NCBI RefSeq assembly: GCF_036322585.1
Contig: NZ_AP024600.1
Span: forward strand, 5,146,001 to 5,210,000
Origin: Luteolibacter sp. LG18
GTDB lineage: Bacteria > Verrucomicrobiota > Verrucomicrobiia > Verrucomicrobiales > Akkermansiaceae
Length of the DNA: 64,000 nucleotides
Direction of reading: 5' to 3'
Part shown: one piece after another, positions 7,914 to 25,548 of the stretch
How the letters are laid out: the number at the start of each line of letters is the position of its first letter
Numbering within the stretch: position 1 is the stretch's first letter
The notes under the pieces: generated by a model
The model's input: the letters and a program-made list of their open reading frames with translations, nothing else
Database searches by the model: none
What the model was told of the DNA's origin: nothing
Program-made: the position numbers and the translations under genes

Positions 7914-9128
7914 ATGCCCCGCCCGCCGAAAAAATTCGTCCCTACCCCCTTCGAGTATCATCAGGAGATCGAGCTGAAAATCGATGCACTGAGTAACCTC
8001 GGCCAAGGACTCGGACGGATCGATGGCTGGGTGGTGTTCGTCCCCTTCTGCTTGCCGGGCGAAACGGTGAAGGCCCGCGTTTACCGCAATGACAAGAACT
8101 GCTCCCACGCGGATCTCGTCGAGGTGATCGAAAAGGCTCCGGAACGCGCCGAACCCGCCTGCCCGCTCTTCGGAGACTGTGGCGGCTGCCAGTACCAGCA
8201 CCTCACCTACGACGCCCAGCTCGCATGGAAAACCCGCCAGGTGGGCGAGCTGATGAAACACATGGCCAGCGTCACCTTCCCGGTGAATCCCTGCCACGGC
8301 TCGCCAAAGCTCTGGAACTACCGCTCGAAGATCACCCCGCACTTCGCCCCGCCCCGCGAGGGCACGATCGGCGAGATCGGTTTCCTCGCGGTGGGCCGCC
8401 GGTCCCAACTCGTGGATGTGCCGCAGTGCCCGATCGCGATGGACACCATCAACGAGGCCCTACCGGAACTCCGTGCCGACATCCGCGCCCAGGCGAAGTC
8501 CTTCAAACGCGGTGCCACCCTCCTGATCCGCGCCACCGAGGGCCACATCGAGACCAACCCGAAAGCAGTGGTCACCGAGAAAGTCGGCGACGTGTCCTTC
8601 GATTTCCTCGCCGGGGACTTCTTCCAGAACAATCCCTACATCCTGCCCGAGTTCACCGGCCACGTGGCGGAGAAAGCCAAGGCGGGCGGCACGAAATACC
8701 TCGTCGACGCCTACTGCGGCTCCGGCCTGTTCGCCCTCACCTTGGCGAAGCATTTCGACAAGGTCGCGGGCGTGGAGGTCTCCGAGACCGCCGCCGAGTG
8801 GGCCCAGCGGAATGCCACCAAGAACGGCATCACCAACGCCACTTTCCTCGCCGCCAGCGCCGAGGCCATCTTCGCGCAGATCGACTTCCCCGCGAATGAG
8901 ACGGCGGTGGTGATCGACCCGCCGCGCAAGGGCTGCACCCGCGAGTTCCTCGACCAGCTCGCCGCCTTCGCTCCGGCCCGCGTCGTCTACGTCTCCTGCG
9001 ACCCCGCCACCCAGGTGCGCGACCTCGCCATCATGCAGGAGCAGGGCTTCAAGCTGGAAGACGTCCAGCCCTTCGACCTCTTCCCGCACACCCGCCACCT
9101 GGAGTGCGTGATGACGTTCGTGCGGTGA
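7914..9128 (+). CDS. class I SAM-dependent RNA uracil-C5 methyltransferase (RlmD/TrmA family)
   Basis: A 404-residue enzyme of the TrmA/RlmC/RlmD family, which methylates C5 of uridine in 23S rRNA or tRNA. Residues ~14-75 form a TRAM-like OB fold. A cysteine cluster that could bind an Fe-S centre is visible (CPLFGDCGGCQYQH plus CPIAM). The methyltransferase domain shows DFFQNNP, the SAM motif DAYCGSGLFAL, DPPRKG, and the catalytic YVSCDPAT with its nucleophile Cys, ending in FPHTRHLE. All key elements are present and the length is normal. Which uridine is modified cannot be told from sequence alone. Confidence 0.9.
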   Translation: MPRPPKKFVPTPFEYHQEIELKIDALSNLGQGLGRIDGWVVFVPFCLPGETVKARVYRNDKNCSHADLVEVIEKAPERAEPACPLFGDCGGCQYQHLTYDAQLAWKTRQVGELMKHMASVTFPVNPCHGSPKLWNYRSKITPHFAPPREGTIGEIGFLAVGRRSQLVDVPQCPIAMDTINEALPELRADIRAQAKSFKRGATLLIRATEGHIETNPKAVVTEKVGDVSFDFLAGDFFQNNPYILPEFTGHVAEKAKAGGTKYLVDAYCGSGLFALTLAKHFDKVAGVEVSETAAEWAQRNATKNGITNATFLAASAEAIFAQIDFPANETAVVIDPPRKGCTREFLDQLAAFAPARVVYVSCDPATQVRDLAIMQEQGFKLEDVQPFDLFPHTRHLECVMTFVR

Positions 9129-18528: not shown

Positions 18529-18945
18529 ATGAATCTCCCTGCTGCGTCCCCTACTCTCCGGTTCTTCTGCGAGGAACCCTTCCAGCGGTTCGCCCGGATC
18601 GAGGGCATCGCGTCCGTCGAGCCGGATGGCATCCGCTTCGAATACGCCATGACCGAAAGCGTGGCCCCCACGCCGAAGGGCTCGGTGTCGAAGCTGCTGC
18701 CCTTCACCGACATCGCCTCGATCGAGCTACGCCACCACTGGATTTCCGCCAGCAAGCTCCGGTTCCGCGCCCGCAGCCTGAAGGCGGTGGAATCCTACCC
18801 CACCACCGATCCCTGCGCGTTCGAGATCGAGATCAGCCAGACCCGGAAGCAGGAAGCGGAGAGCTTCGTGGCGGCCGCGAACATCCGGCTCGAAACGTTC
18901 ATCCGCGGCAGCCTGGCCGCGGCGGCCAACGGCCCGCAGGGTTGA
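18529..18945 (+). CDS. hypothetical protein, possibly PH-like fold
   Basis: A 138-residue cytoplasmic protein with no signal peptide or membrane segment. The alternating hydrophobic pattern (GIRFEYAM, KLLPFTDIASIELRHHW, KLRFRARSL) followed by a C-terminal helix (ESFVAAANIRLETFI) resembles bacterial PH-like domains, but this is a structural guess. The composition is protein-like and the start ATG is clear. It lies 115 bases before the guanidine exporter, but the riboswitch between them makes the exporter a separate control unit. Confidence 0.6.
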   Translation: MNLPAASPTLRFFCEEPFQRFARIEGIASVEPDGIRFEYAMTESVAPTPKGSVSKLLPFTDIASIELRHHWISASKLRFRARSLKAVESYPTTDPCAFEIEISQTRKQEAESFVAAANIRLETFIRGSLAAAANGPQG

Positions 18946-18994
18946 CAAACCCTGCGAACGGGCGGATAGCTGCGGCGCGGAAGCTCCTTTCCGC

Positions 18995-19034
18995 CCGGAC
19001 GAGGCACGCCGTACCCGGTCAAGACAAGACGACG
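18995..19034 (+). promoter_or_regulatory. guanidine-III (ykkC-III) riboswitch
   Basis: The 40 bases from 18995 match the class III guanidine riboswitch closely. They start CCGGACGAGG, continue with CGCCGTACCCGGTCA (19008-19022), and end with GACAAGACGACG (19023-19034). In this class the CGCCGT segment pairs with the 3' ACGNCG segment as a pseudoknot around the bound guanidinium ion; here five of the six pairs form, with one C-A mismatch. It ends 26 bases before the start codon of a SugE/Gdx-type exporter, which is the classic target gene. Guanidine would be expected to turn the exporter on, probably through translation. Confidence 0.9.
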
Positions 19035-19060
19035 TTCGAACCACGAACACTCGTACTGTC

Positions 19061-19384
19061 ATGTCACCATGGGTCACCCTCGTTTTCGCCGGCATTCTTG
19101 AAACCTGCTGGGCGATGAGCCTGAAGGCCACCGCCGGTTTCACCCGCCCCGGCCCCACCACCTTCTTCCTGGTCACGCTCGCGGGCAGCATGGTCCTGCT
19201 TTCCGCGGCGGTGAAACAGCTCCCGATGGGCACCGCCTACGCCGTGTGGGTCGGCATTGGCGCCACCGGCGCGGCCATCGCCTCGATTTTCCTCTATCAG
19301 GAGCCGATGTCCCTGCTCCGCGCGCTGTTCCTGGCGCTGCTGGTCGGATCGATCATGGGCCTGAAAGCCACGGCGCAGCATTGA
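19061..19384 (+). CDS. gdx: SMR-family guanidinium exporter (Gdx/SugE type)
   Basis: A 107-residue protein with four transmembrane helices. It carries the SMR signature Glu in helix 1 (AGILETCWA) and the SugE/Gdx-type segment LPMGTAYAVWVGIGATGAA, rather than the EmrE drug-exporter pattern. Gdx proteins work as dual-topology dimers that export guanidinium in exchange for protons. The class III guanidine riboswitch upstream supports this function independently. The PLP decarboxylase gene follows 33 bases after its stop, with no terminator visible, so the two are probably co-transcribed. Confidence 0.92.
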   Translation: MSPWVTLVFAGILETCWAMSLKATAGFTRPGPTTFFLVTLAGSMVLLSAAVKQLPMGTAYAVWVGIGATGAAIASIFLYQEPMSLLRALFLALLVGSIMGLKATAQH

Positions 19385-19417
19385 TCCCGTGCCGGTCATG
19401 AGGCATAGTGGGGGTTG

Positions 19418-20581
19418 ATGGACGAGGTTCACGATCCGTTGCCGATGCCTCCGCTGCCACCGGAGGCGCGGGCGCGGCTCGATGCGTTCCTCGGCCGGAT
19501 CGAGGAGGTTTCCCACACCCTCGTCGGCTACCCGTGCAGCCAGGATTTCAATTATCCCGAGCTCGCCCCTTTCCTGCGCTATCCGCTGAACAACTGCGGC
19601 GATCCCTTCGCGGACTCCATCTACCGGGAGAACTCCTTCCCCTTCGAGCGCGAGGTGATCGCCACCTTCCAGAAGCACCTCCGTGCCCCCTTGGATCAAA
19701 CCTGGGGCTACGTCACCTCCGGCGGCACCGAGGGCAACCTCTACGGCCTCTATCTGGCCCGCGAACTGTATCCGGAAGGGGTGGTCTATTACTCCGAGCA
19801 CACCCACTACTCCGCCGCCAAGATCGTCCGGGTCCTCGATGCCCGCAGCATCATGATCCGCGGCCAGGACAATGGGGAGATCGACTACGACGATCTCCGC
19901 GAAACCCTGCGCCTGCACCGCGACGTGCCGCCGATCATTTTCGCCAACATCGGCACCACCATGCACGGCGCGGTCGACGACCTCCGGAAGATCCGCGCGA
20001 TGCTCAAGGAGCTCGCCATTTCCCGCGCCTACATCCACGCCGATGCCGCGCTTTCCGGCATGATCCTGCCGTGGGTGGAGCGTCCGCAGCCCTTCGGGTT
20101 CGATGCCGGAATCGACTCCATCGCCGTGTCCGGCCACAAGTTCGTCGGCAGCCCTGTCCCCTGCGGCGTGGTGCTCGCCCGCCGCGCCCACACCGAGCGG
20201 GTCGCCCGCAGCGTGGAATACGTCGGCGTCATGGACACCACCATCCTCGGCAGCCGCAGCGCGCTCGGCCCGCTCGTGCTCTGGAGCGCCTTCCAGCGCT
20301 GGGGCGAGGACGGCATGCGGAGGCGCGTCGCCGCCTGTCTGGATATGGCGGACTACGCCATCGCCCGCTTCGAAGCCGCTGGCATCCCGTCCTGGCGGCA
20401 CGAGAACTCCATCACCGTTGTCTTTCCGCGCCCCGCGGACGAGGTGATCCGCCGCTGGCAGATCGCCCCGCACGAACAAATCGCCCACCTCATCACCATG
20501 CCCCACGTCACCCGCGACACCATCGACCGGGTGATCGCGGATGTCGTGGCCTCGCGCCTCCCCGTCCCCTCCGGACCATGA
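19418..20581 (+). CDS. PLP-dependent group II decarboxylase, histidine/serine decarboxylase-like
   Basis: A 387-residue pyridoxal-phosphate enzyme of the bacterial histidine decarboxylase / plant serine decarboxylase family. Visible marks are YVTSGGTEGNLYGLYLAR (cofactor phosphate region), EHTHYSAAKIVR, NIGTTMHGAVDD, HADAALSG (Asp to the pyridine nitrogen) and SVSGHKF-type VSGHKFVGSP, whose Lys binds PLP. The length is normal. ATG 19418 is used; TTG 19415 is also in frame. It stands between a riboswitch-controlled guanidinium exporter and a double-ACT gene whose start overlaps its stop (ATGA). The amine product is unknown; a guanidino amino acid substrate is a speculation drawn from context. 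Confidence 0.85.
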   Translation: MDEVHDPLPMPPLPPEARARLDAFLGRIEEVSHTLVGYPCSQDFNYPELAPFLRYPLNNCGDPFADSIYRENSFPFEREVIATFQKHLRAPLDQTWGYVTSGGTEGNLYGLYLARELYPEGVVYYSEHTHYSAAKIVRVLDARSIMIRGQDNGEIDYDDLRETLRLHRDVPPIIFANIGTTMHGAVDDLRKIRAMLKELAISRAYIHADAALSGMILPWVERPQPFGFDAGIDSIAVSGHKFVGSPVPCGVVLARRAHTERVARSVEYVGVMDTTILGSRSALGPLVLWSAFQRWGEDGMRRRVAACLDMADYAIARFEAAGIPSWRHENSITVVFPRPADEVIRRWQIAPHEQIAHLITMPHVTRDTIDRVIADVVASRLPVPSGP

Positions 20582-20976
20582 AGGAAATCCTCATCATCAC
20601 CCCAGGCAACCGTCCCGGTGTGCTGGCGGACGTCACCGGCCTGCTGGCCGACCGGGGAATCAACATCCTCCAGATCGACGGGACCGACGACCACGAACAC
20701 GCGGTCATCCGCCTCGAAGCTGAACCCTACGACGACGCCTTGCGCGCCCTCACCGCCGCGGGCTACCAGGCCATGAGCGAGGAAGTCCTCGTCATCCGCA
20801 TCCAGGACCAGCCCGGTGCCATCGCCCACGTGGCCGCCCGTTTCCGCGAGCCCCAGATCAACATCAGCGCCATCCGCTTCGTCCGCCGCGACCAAGGCTG
20901 GGCCACCGTCATCCTCTCCACCAGCGACAATGCGAAGGCCCGCGTGTTGCTCGCGGACTGCCTGGTGAATGCGTGA
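20578..20976 (+). CDS. double ACT-domain protein
   Basis: A 132-residue protein made of two ACT domains in tandem: ~1-68 (NRPGVLADVTGLLADRGINI) and ~72-132 (DQPGAIAHVAARFREPQINI). ACT domains bind amino acids and similar small ligands to control enzymes. Its ATG overlaps the TGA of the decarboxylase gene (ATGA at 20578-20581), a sign of translational coupling and of equal amounts of the two proteins. It is most simply read as an amino acid-sensing partner of the decarboxylase. No catalytic or DNA-binding domain is present. Confidence 0.85.
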   Translation: MKEILIITPGNRPGVLADVTGLLADRGINILQIDGTDDHEHAVIRLEAEPYDDALRALTAAGYQAMSEEVLVIRIQDQPGAIAHVAARFREPQINISAIRFVRRDQGWATVILSTSDNAKARVLLADCLVNA

Positions 20977-20977
20977 A

Positions 20978-21068
20978 AAAGTGCCGAGTCATCAGTGAGC
21001 AGTGATCAGAAAGAGGGGCAATCTGAATACTCTTCTCTGATCACTGCTCACTGATGACTCGGCACTTT
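20978..21068. repeat. 33-base perfect inverted repeat (terminator and repeat-family member)
   Basis: The arms at 20978-21010 and 21036-21068 are perfect reverse complements over 33 bases, separated by a 25-base loop. The element fills the gap between the convergent ACT and kinase genes and begins with AAA and ends with TTT, so it could end transcription from both sides. A degenerate single copy of the right arm, with 27 of 31 bases identical, lies at 25518-25548, which indicates a dispersed repeat rather than a unique terminator. Confidence 0.75.
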
Positions 21069-21070
21069 CT

Positions 21071-22225
21071 TTATCTTTTCCCCCGCCACACCTTGCGGAC
21101 GAATTTCTCCATCGCCTCTTCCTGCTCCTCGATCCGCTCGACCAGCTTGAGCTGGGTGCGGCAGCGGTCAAGGTTGTGATCCGGGCGGTGGGTCTTGAAA
21201 TACACGTCGCCCTCGAGGTGATCGGTGAGGAAGCGGATGCCCACTTCCAACGTCATCAGCTTTCCGGCGAAGACCATGTGCTCCACCTCGGTCTCGTTGA
21301 CGAAACCACCGGCGGCGTCGAGGAAGCCTTCCGTCAGCGCCTCAAACATCGGCATCTGCATCTGGACCTTCGTGAGATCAATTTCATCCTCCGCCGCCGG
21401 GCTGGTCGCGGAGCGCACCAAGTCGCCGAAATCGTAAAGCGAGAGCCCCGGCATCACCGTGTCCAAGTCGATCACGCACACCGCCTCGTCGCTCTCCGAG
21501 TCGATCATCACATTGTTGATCTTGGTGTCGTTGTGGGTGATGCGGACCGGGATCTCTCCCGCGTCCCTCAGATCCAGCAGCTTGCCGGTGATCTCGCCGC
21601 GAGCGCGGATGAAATCGAATTCGGCGCGGACGGACTCGAGGCGGCCCAGCGGATCCTCCGCCGCCACCTCCAGCAGCCGCTGGTAGCGCCGCCGGGTGTC
21701 GTGGAAATTCGGGATCGTCTCGACGATCTCGGTGGGTGCGAGATCGCTCACCAGATCCTGGAAGGACGCAAAGGCCCGCGCCGCCTGATAGGCCTGCCGG
21801 GTATTCTCGACCACATCGTAGGTCAAGCAGCCCTCGATGAAATTGTAGCAGCGCCACAGGCCGCCGCACTGGGCCTCCGCCCAGAAGTGGCCGCCGCGGG
21901 CCGGGTAGAGGTTCAACGTCTGTCCGCCGAGGTCCTTCTTCACCCGCAGCACCTTCCAGTTGATGTGGCGCGTCACGCACTCGATGTTCCGCATCACCGC
22001 ATGCGGATCCTTGAAAACGCTGTCGTTGATCCGCTGCAGGATGTAGCGCTGGCGGGAACCGTCCGGCAGCTCGTAGGTCGCGCGGTAGGTCGAGTTGATG
22101 TGGCCGCTCTGGATTTCCTCCCCGAACACGAACTCACCGCCGATCGCGAACTGGCTACCGATCGCACTGACGGCTTCCTGGACGATGGGGTCGATTTCGC
22201 GAACCGGAGAGGTGAATGGAACCAT
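21071..22225 (-). CDS. APH-fold phosphotransferase, N-acetylhexosamine 1-kinase (NahK)-like
   Basis: A 384-residue kinase of the aminoglycoside phosphotransferase fold. The catalytic loop THNDTKINNVMID, the Mg-binding VCVIDLDTVMPG and the nucleotide-lobe segment SGHINSTYRA match NahK-type sugar 1-kinases, which phosphorylate GlcNAc/GalNAc at C1. ATG 22225 gives the family's usual N-terminus. The C-terminus is highly charged (ERIEEQEEAMEKFVRKVWRGKR). No other genes of the lacto-N-biose pathway are beside it, so the sugar is inferred from family resemblance only. Confidence 0.75.
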   Translation of the reverse strand: MVPFTSPVREIDPIVQEAVSAIGSQFAIGGEFVFGEEIQSGHINSTYRATYELPDGSRQRYILQRINDSVFKDPHAVMRNIECVTRHINWKVLRVKKDLGGQTLNLYPARGGHFWAEAQCGGLWRCYNFIEGCLTYDVVENTRQAYQAARAFASFQDLVSDLAPTEIVETIPNFHDTRRRYQRLLEVAAEDPLGRLESVRAEFDFIRARGEITGKLLDLRDAGEIPVRITHNDTKINNVMIDSESDEAVCVIDLDTVMPGLSLYDFGDLVRSATSPAAEDEIDLTKVQMQMPMFEALTEGFLDAAGGFVNETEVEHMVFAGKLMTLEVGIRFLTDHLEGDVYFKTHRPDHNLDRCRTQLKLVERIEEQEEAMEKFVRKVWRGKR

Positions 22226-22469
22226 GTCCGGCCAGTCTAGCAATGAGCGGACCACGGGCCAGCCGGAAACCACGTGTTTTTTATTCCATGCATCAATCCA
22301 TCCGTAGTCTTCCGACATCCTCCTGCGGAAATTGCCAAGTCTCATTCCCGCTCCCGCCATCAGGCATTCGCCATTTTCCCCAACGCCGTCCTGATTTCAT
22401 CATGTCCGGCCATTTCATGGCGCTCGTCCCGCGCTTGATCCCCCGCCAGCGAACGGTTAGCCCCGCGGC

Positions 22470-23069
22470 ATGCAACCCCGCCTGCCCTTCCGCTTCCCCG
22501 GCATCGCCGCCGACGTGGAACGGCTGCGGGTCAAGCTCACGGAGGCGTTGTCCCTCGCAGGCTTCGTGGCCGACTCCCCCGCCGCCGTGCTGAATCTGGC
22601 ATGCGGCCGTGCCGATGAAACCGGCACCCTCTTCGCCGCGCTGTCCCCGGCGCAAGTCGGCTTCTACCTCGGCATCGACCTCCTCCCCGGCGACATCGCG
22701 GAAGCCACGAAACGCTGGAAACCGGAAACGCCGGACACCCGCATCGAGTTCCGTGCCGGCGATGCCTCCCGCACCGAGCGCATGCGGGAACTGCCGCCCT
22801 TCGACCTCGTCTTCATCCGCCACCAGAACTACTGGCACGACGCCCCGGTGTGGGACCGCCTGCTGGAAAACGCCCTCGCCGCCCTCAAGCCCGGCGGCGT
22901 GCTGGCCATCACCTCCTACTTCGACCGCGAGCACGCCCTCGCCCTTACCGCGCTGAAACTCCGCGGCGCGGAGCTGCTAGTGAACTTCCGCCACGCGGAA
23001 TCCCGCATCCTCGACGACGCGCCGAACAAGTCCGTCGACCGCCATCTCGCCGTACTGCGCCGAAGGTAG
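22470..23069 (+). CDS. class I SAM-dependent methyltransferase
   Basis: A 199-residue methyltransferase-fold protein. Motif I is VLNLACGRADETG near residue 45, the acidic end of strand 2 is YLGIDLLPGDI, motif II/III is FRAGDASR, and motif IV is PPFDLVFIRHQNYW. The LKPGGVLAITSYF segment is the usual post-motif strand. It lacks clear family-specific features, so the acceptor is unknown. It is divergent from the kinase gene and alone on its strand. Confidence 0.75.
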   Translation: MQPRLPFRFPGIAADVERLRVKLTEALSLAGFVADSPAAVLNLACGRADETGTLFAALSPAQVGFYLGIDLLPGDIAEATKRWKPETPDTRIEFRAGDASRTERMRELPPFDLVFIRHQNYWHDAPVWDRLLENALAALKPGGVLAITSYFDREHALALTALKLRGAELLVNFRHAESRILDDAPNKSVDRHLAVLRRR

Positions 23070-25510: not shown

Positions 25511-25517
25511 CTTCTCC

Positions 25518-25548
25518 TCTGATCACTTTCCACTGCTGACTCGGCACT
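25518..25548. repeat. degenerate copy of the 21036-21068 repeat arm
   Basis: TCTGATCACT then CACTGCTGACTCGGCACT: 27 of 31 bases match the right arm at 21036. It lies between two minus-strand genes (25510 start and 25552 stop). Only one arm is present, so it cannot fold like the complete element. Confidence 0.6.

Follow-up and report, generated by a model that had tools for sequence, protein, structure and literature searches.

An ordinary guanidine-III riboswitch and gdx exporter gene, followed by a probably separate decarboxylase-ACT gene pair, in Luteolibacter sp. LG18

Introduction

Does the guanidine riboswitch of Luteolibacter sp. LG18 govern only the exporter gene that it precedes, or does guanidine control extend into the amino acid decarboxylase and ACT protein genes that follow on the same strand? 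We examined this in a 64,000-nucleotide stretch of the genome (the window), for which the earlier note had proposed that all three genes form one guanidine-responsive unit closed by a strong hairpin. The features of the locus are collected in Table 1.

Table 1. Features of the riboswitch-exporter-decarboxylase-ACT locus (window positions)
Feature	Position	Strand	Support and remarks
Guanidine-III (ykkC-III) riboswitch aptamer	18974..19038	+	Rfam RF01763, 56.7 bits, full-length
Probable expression platform	19021..19061	+	RNA folding; P2 3' strand GACAAGACGA pairs alternatively with UCGU..UGUC before gdx AUG
gdx, guanidinium exporter (predicted), SMR family, 107 aa	19061..19384	+	Pfam PF00893, 88.6 bits
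33-base gap, gdx stop to decarboxylase ATG	19385..19417	+	Holds synteny break relative to sister species; GCATAGT
PLP-dependent amino acid decarboxylase, HDC/SDC family, 387 aa	19418..20581	+	NCBIfam NF002748, 470 bits
Double-ACT protein, 132 aa	20578..20976	+	PF01842, 60.5 bits; ACT_8 'ACT domain pair', 33.9 bits
Large perfect inverted repeat	20978..21068	.	33-nt arms, 100% complementary; copy of dispersed palindromic repeat
Phosphotransferase-like gene (APH domain), flank marker	21071..22360	-	PF01636, 58.9 bits; synteny

Results

A cmscan search of the whole window gave RF01763 as the sole Rfam match (E 4.5e-9, model positions 1-67), with a score well above the gathering score of 36 bits, and a genome search found Guanidine-III in single copy within the 5.8 Mb genome. 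The covariance-model search proposed in the earlier note thus bears out the riboswitch class that it had claimed; its placement needs correction, since a start at 18995 clips the first 21 bases of the aptamer, whose end lies 22 and not 26 bases before the gdx ATG. A guanidine-related gene stands downstream, gdx here and likewise at 8 other loci. Judged from its sequence, the element is a genuine and ordinary Guanidine-III riboswitch.

In the predicted fold of the aptamer and leader, the P2 3' strand pairs with bases directly 5' of the gdx AUG, giving a probable expression platform that would mask the start codon. The fold z-score (-1.46) is unremarkable, and the platform is therefore one that we infer. 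Folding of the other riboswitch loci placed a hairpin of other sequence at the equivalent position in 7 of them; in locus L107 an equivalent hairpin was not clearly formed. No terminator was found between the aptamer and the gdx start codon in a scan of 18850-21150. Guanidine-III is reported to influence both the initiation of translation and the stability of the mRNA (PMC12186494); given this mode of action, and a predicted switch able to mask the gdx start only, the direct riboswitch target would be gdx, and the platform fits published Guanidine-III behaviour. Compared with the known Guanidine-III elements upstream of gdx/sugE/emrE exporters, there was no fundamental difference: the full-length model match, standard target gene, short distance to the start, lack of a terminator and translational-type platform are all alike, whereas the start codon here would be masked without an obvious Shine-Dalgarno sequence, and the host belongs to the Verrucomicrobiota while most known examples are from Actinobacteria (PMC12186494). 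A 138-aa open frame (18529-18945) directly 5' of the riboswitch is conserved at 82% identity in a sister species of the same genus (G082, considered below) and had no Pfam or NCBIfam match.

The best relatives of the gdx product among solved structures were the 6wk5 entry series (5.8e-26), which we take to be Gdx-Clo. The Gdx substrate-site residues checked were present in 5 of 5 cases (E14, W17, S43, Y60, W63) within an SMR fold, and comprise a central Glu and the equivalents of W16, S42, Y59 and W62 in the Gdx-Clo residue list (PMC9574504), some of these signature residues occurring in other SMR subtypes too. The predicted transporter resembles Gdx guanidinium exporters in its best structure match and in these residues but falls under the NCBIfam SugE equivalog cut-off (97.5 vs 126 bits), so that the name Gdx rests on the residues and the riboswitch. 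The protein is thus, from its sequence features, a predicted Gdx-type guanidinium exporter, and the earlier identification of a SugE/Gdx-type riboswitch target held up on the PF00893 match, the Gdx residues and the riboswitch 22 bases upstream.

The group II PLP decarboxylase begins 33 bases after the exporter stop, as had been described. It scored 470.2 bits against a cut-off of 305 for the histidine decarboxylase model NF002748, and it aligns over its whole length with Photobacterium histidine decarboxylase (PDB 7erv, 3e-110) and Arabidopsis serine decarboxylase (8jg7, 3e-89). The PLP lysine (K241 in SGHKF) and the catalytic-loop tyrosine (Y268 in VEY) are both kept. The window enzyme has these features in common with the bacterial histidine and plant serine decarboxylases, but differs from them in being paired with a double-ACT protein and in having a cysteine (Cys40) at the substrate-determining position of the plant enzymes, which is Tyr111 in AtSerDC and Phe106 in the tea alanine enzyme (PMC11407765) and Glu in the Photobacterium enzyme; the ACT-linked relatives have Cys, Val, Thr or Ala at this position. 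The Tyr of serine decarboxylases is accordingly absent; the AtSerDC substitutions Y111A/V/L/W abolish serine activity, Cys not being among the substitutions tested (PMC11407765). Enzymes acting on serine, alanine and aromatic acids also belong to this family (PMC11407765, PMC4177580), which is known to change substrates (PMC4177580), so that family membership does not fix the substrate of the window decarboxylase.

The ACT gene overlaps the decarboxylase stop by four bases (ATGA), in agreement with the earlier description, and its product exceeds the ACT_8 cut-off of 23.5 bits. When 84,980 species genomes were scanned, 39 decarboxylase relatives emerged, 38 of them close. With related whole genomes added, 26 loci other than that of the window have an ACT gene as the next gene after the decarboxylase; they are distributed over five phyla (Verrucomicrobiota, Armatimonadota, Chloroflexota of the SAR202 type, Pseudomonadota and Omnitrophota; organisms as named in the sequence records, many being metagenome bins), and the 4-base overlap is common to 9 of the 27 pairs with the window included. 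Decarboxylase loci without ACT were mostly from Bacteroidota and largely confined to a single region of the tree. No third gene was found to accompany the pair across phyla within about 6 kb. Like stand-alone paired ACT proteins (ACT_8, regulatory ACT), the window protein consists of two consecutive ACT domains, but genes for proteins of its type consistently follow straight after that of a PLP decarboxylase. Our literature search found no description of an ACT-histidine decarboxylase pairing, and the decarboxylase plus double-ACT pair is apparently both recurrent and undescribed. The ACT pair would probably bind an amino acid and regulate the decarboxylase. The decarboxylase is 71% identical to, and groups with, a sequence from an Armatimonadota (Chthonomonadales) bin, compared with only 51-58% identity in three other members of the host's own family or genus, which suggests lateral transfer of the cassette formed by the two genes.

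We then compared the neighbourhoods of the two parts. At the 8 other Verrucomicrobiota Guanidine-III loci, gdx was present and the decarboxylase absent in the stretch read, which spanned 11-13 kb for most loci and 3 kb for L107. Conversely, gdx was beside the decarboxylase at none of the 26 other decarboxylase-ACT loci, Guanidine-III was not near the decarboxylase at any of the decarboxylase loci scanned, and it was found nowhere in the 24 decarboxylase-ACT genomes that were searched for it, most of which carry no completeness figure. The genome survey proposed earlier for a conserved three-gene neighbourhood therefore turned up the linkage in no other genome examined, and with the two halves also apart in the sister species, the claim that decarboxylase and ACT protein belong to one guanidine-responsive unit was not supported. 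Literature matches for a guanidine riboswitch together with a decarboxylase and exporter appeared unrelated, as judged by their titles and abstracts.

In the sister, the decarboxylase is 88% identical to that of the window; riboswitch and gdx are at C1:2.385 Mb, and decarboxylase and ACT gene at C1:0.956 Mb, where prfA precedes them by about 70 bases. DNA similarity between window and sister stops at the gdx stop and restarts shortly before the decarboxylase ATG, placing the break within the 33-base gap. In the related genus g7, homologues of the phosphotransferase gene and of a methyltransferase gene (22470-23069), which come next after the cassette in the window, stand close to gdx without the decarboxylase, and most of these loci keep the order and orientation of the window. 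The cassette is thus the insert, the window retaining the old order and the sister having broken it, and the linkage of gdx with the cassette appears to predate the split of the two species and to have been present in their common ancestor. Loss of the linkage in the sister, both halves being kept, is one event; it lowers, without abolishing, the likelihood of a functional link.

A simple reciprocal inversion was considered as the origin of the sister order and rejected as a poor fit. In the window genome a 145-kb block (G000:C1:5020524-5165418) lies between prfA and the decarboxylase; in the sister, if about 7 kb adjoining prfA is left aside, one end of this block is fused to the other, a layout that an inversion does not neatly explain. 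The block looks as if it had been excised as a circle and then reinserted.

Within the gap, the sequence GCATAGT stands 8 bases 5' of the decarboxylase ATG, and at the same distance in the sister though the upstream DNA differs; a 7-base block in register was reached by 0.15% of shuffles. The block resembles a -10 element, and a candidate promoter, TTGATC-17-CATAGT, has 8/12 matches and would give a nearly leaderless start. The scan of 18850-21150 gave no consensus promoter at its threshold, the gap holding only the 8/12 candidate, and no + strand terminator. The 33-base spacing itself was as first described, and a promoter or terminator in it, which the earlier note had named as an argument against a single unit, was not seen above threshold.

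The strong hairpin reported after the third gene is present, with arms at 20978-21010 and 21036-21068, but did not serve as an operon boundary: it is a dispersed repeat, for which the genome search gave 35 partial matches spread over about 20 sites, and an operon end defined by it was rejected. It may also be a transcription terminator.

Discussion

We consider it highly probable that the locus consists of an ordinary riboswitch-gdx unit and a separately inserted, mobile decarboxylase-ACT cassette, two independent units placed head to tail. Guanidine would stabilise the aptamer (helix P2 and pseudoknot), and the stabilised aptamer would keep the P2 3' strand from pairing in the region of the gdx start codon, allowing gdx translation and making the gdx mRNA more stable. 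The decarboxylase and ACT genes would form a self-contained, horizontally mobile cassette that inserted between gdx and the phosphotransferase gene before the window species and the sister diverged, and the sister would later have split the two units by rearrangement in the gap. In the window genome, transcription from the gdx promoter may to some extent run on into the cassette. This reading draws on the observed riboswitch match, exporter type, conservation of two separate pairs and rearrangement; we infer that the cassette has no functional guanidine link. Against two units, the genes are co-directional and only 33 bases apart, and the scan detected no strong terminator or promoter, which makes co-transcription plausible. 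As Guanidine-III affects mRNA stability (PMC12186494), a polycistronic mRNA could be guanidine-responsive; moreover, the linkage appears to have lasted some time, and its loss was seen once only.

These same features, with the 4-base overlap and the lack of a consensus promoter in the gap, would suit one guanidine-responsive operon in which the decarboxylase and an ACT sensor take part in guanidine or guanidino-amino-acid metabolism, as would the ability of Guanidine-III to stabilise mRNA (PMC12186494). The linkage, however, is unconserved in every other genome examined and is broken in the sister with both halves retained, and the decarboxylase is of the HDC/SDC family, specific for His, Ser, Ala or aromatic substrates, and not of the arginine decarboxylases; we regard such an operon as very improbable, and give a dedicated guanidine or guanidino-amino-acid pathway hardly any credence. 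Two more limited possibilities are sub-cases of the two-unit reading. The cassette may have been captured by accident, so that it is co-transcribed with gdx and guanidine slightly increases its expression, by read-through or by stabilising the mRNA, with no metabolic reason. The short gap, in which no terminator was detected, and a linkage that by synteny is older than the split from the sister agree with this, whereas the sister keeps the cassette without a riboswitch, and the GCATAGT conserved there is compatible with a weak promoter of the cassette's own. Such capture is quite possible, if somewhat short of probable, and we judge co-transcription across the gap in the window genome, taken by itself, to be a real prospect that just fails to persuade. 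Alternatively, the cassette may be transcribed independently of gdx from a promoter in the gap, as the 7-base block equidistant from the ATG in both species, and seldom matched by shuffles, would suggest; yet the candidate is under the scan threshold, the gdx stop codon falls within its -35-like part, which is unconserved in the sister, and sequence homology itself could explain the shared block, so that we think this somewhat less likely than not. It is improbable, in our estimate, that an undescribed, laterally mobile decarboxylase system, controlled by an ACT sensor of its own and having neither histidine nor serine as its substrate, has come under guanidine control in this lineage via the stabilised gdx message.

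On the two-unit reading, the tempting tie between guanidine sensing and amino acid decarboxylation is removed as unsupported. The locus adds a clean Verrucomicrobiota example of riboswitch and gdx, and it brings out the recurrent decarboxylase plus double-ACT gene pair of five phyla; this pairing is the more interesting lead, with substrate and regulation directly testable.

The palindromic repeat that follows the ACT gene (TCAGTGATCACTG type) was not found in G158; it occurs again in the window at 25517-25548 and in several copies in the sister genome. At sister locus L030, a 16-base exact piece of it (8108-8123) lies between the decarboxylase and ACT genes, and the decarboxylase frame there is longer (411 aa), with the ATGA overlap lost.
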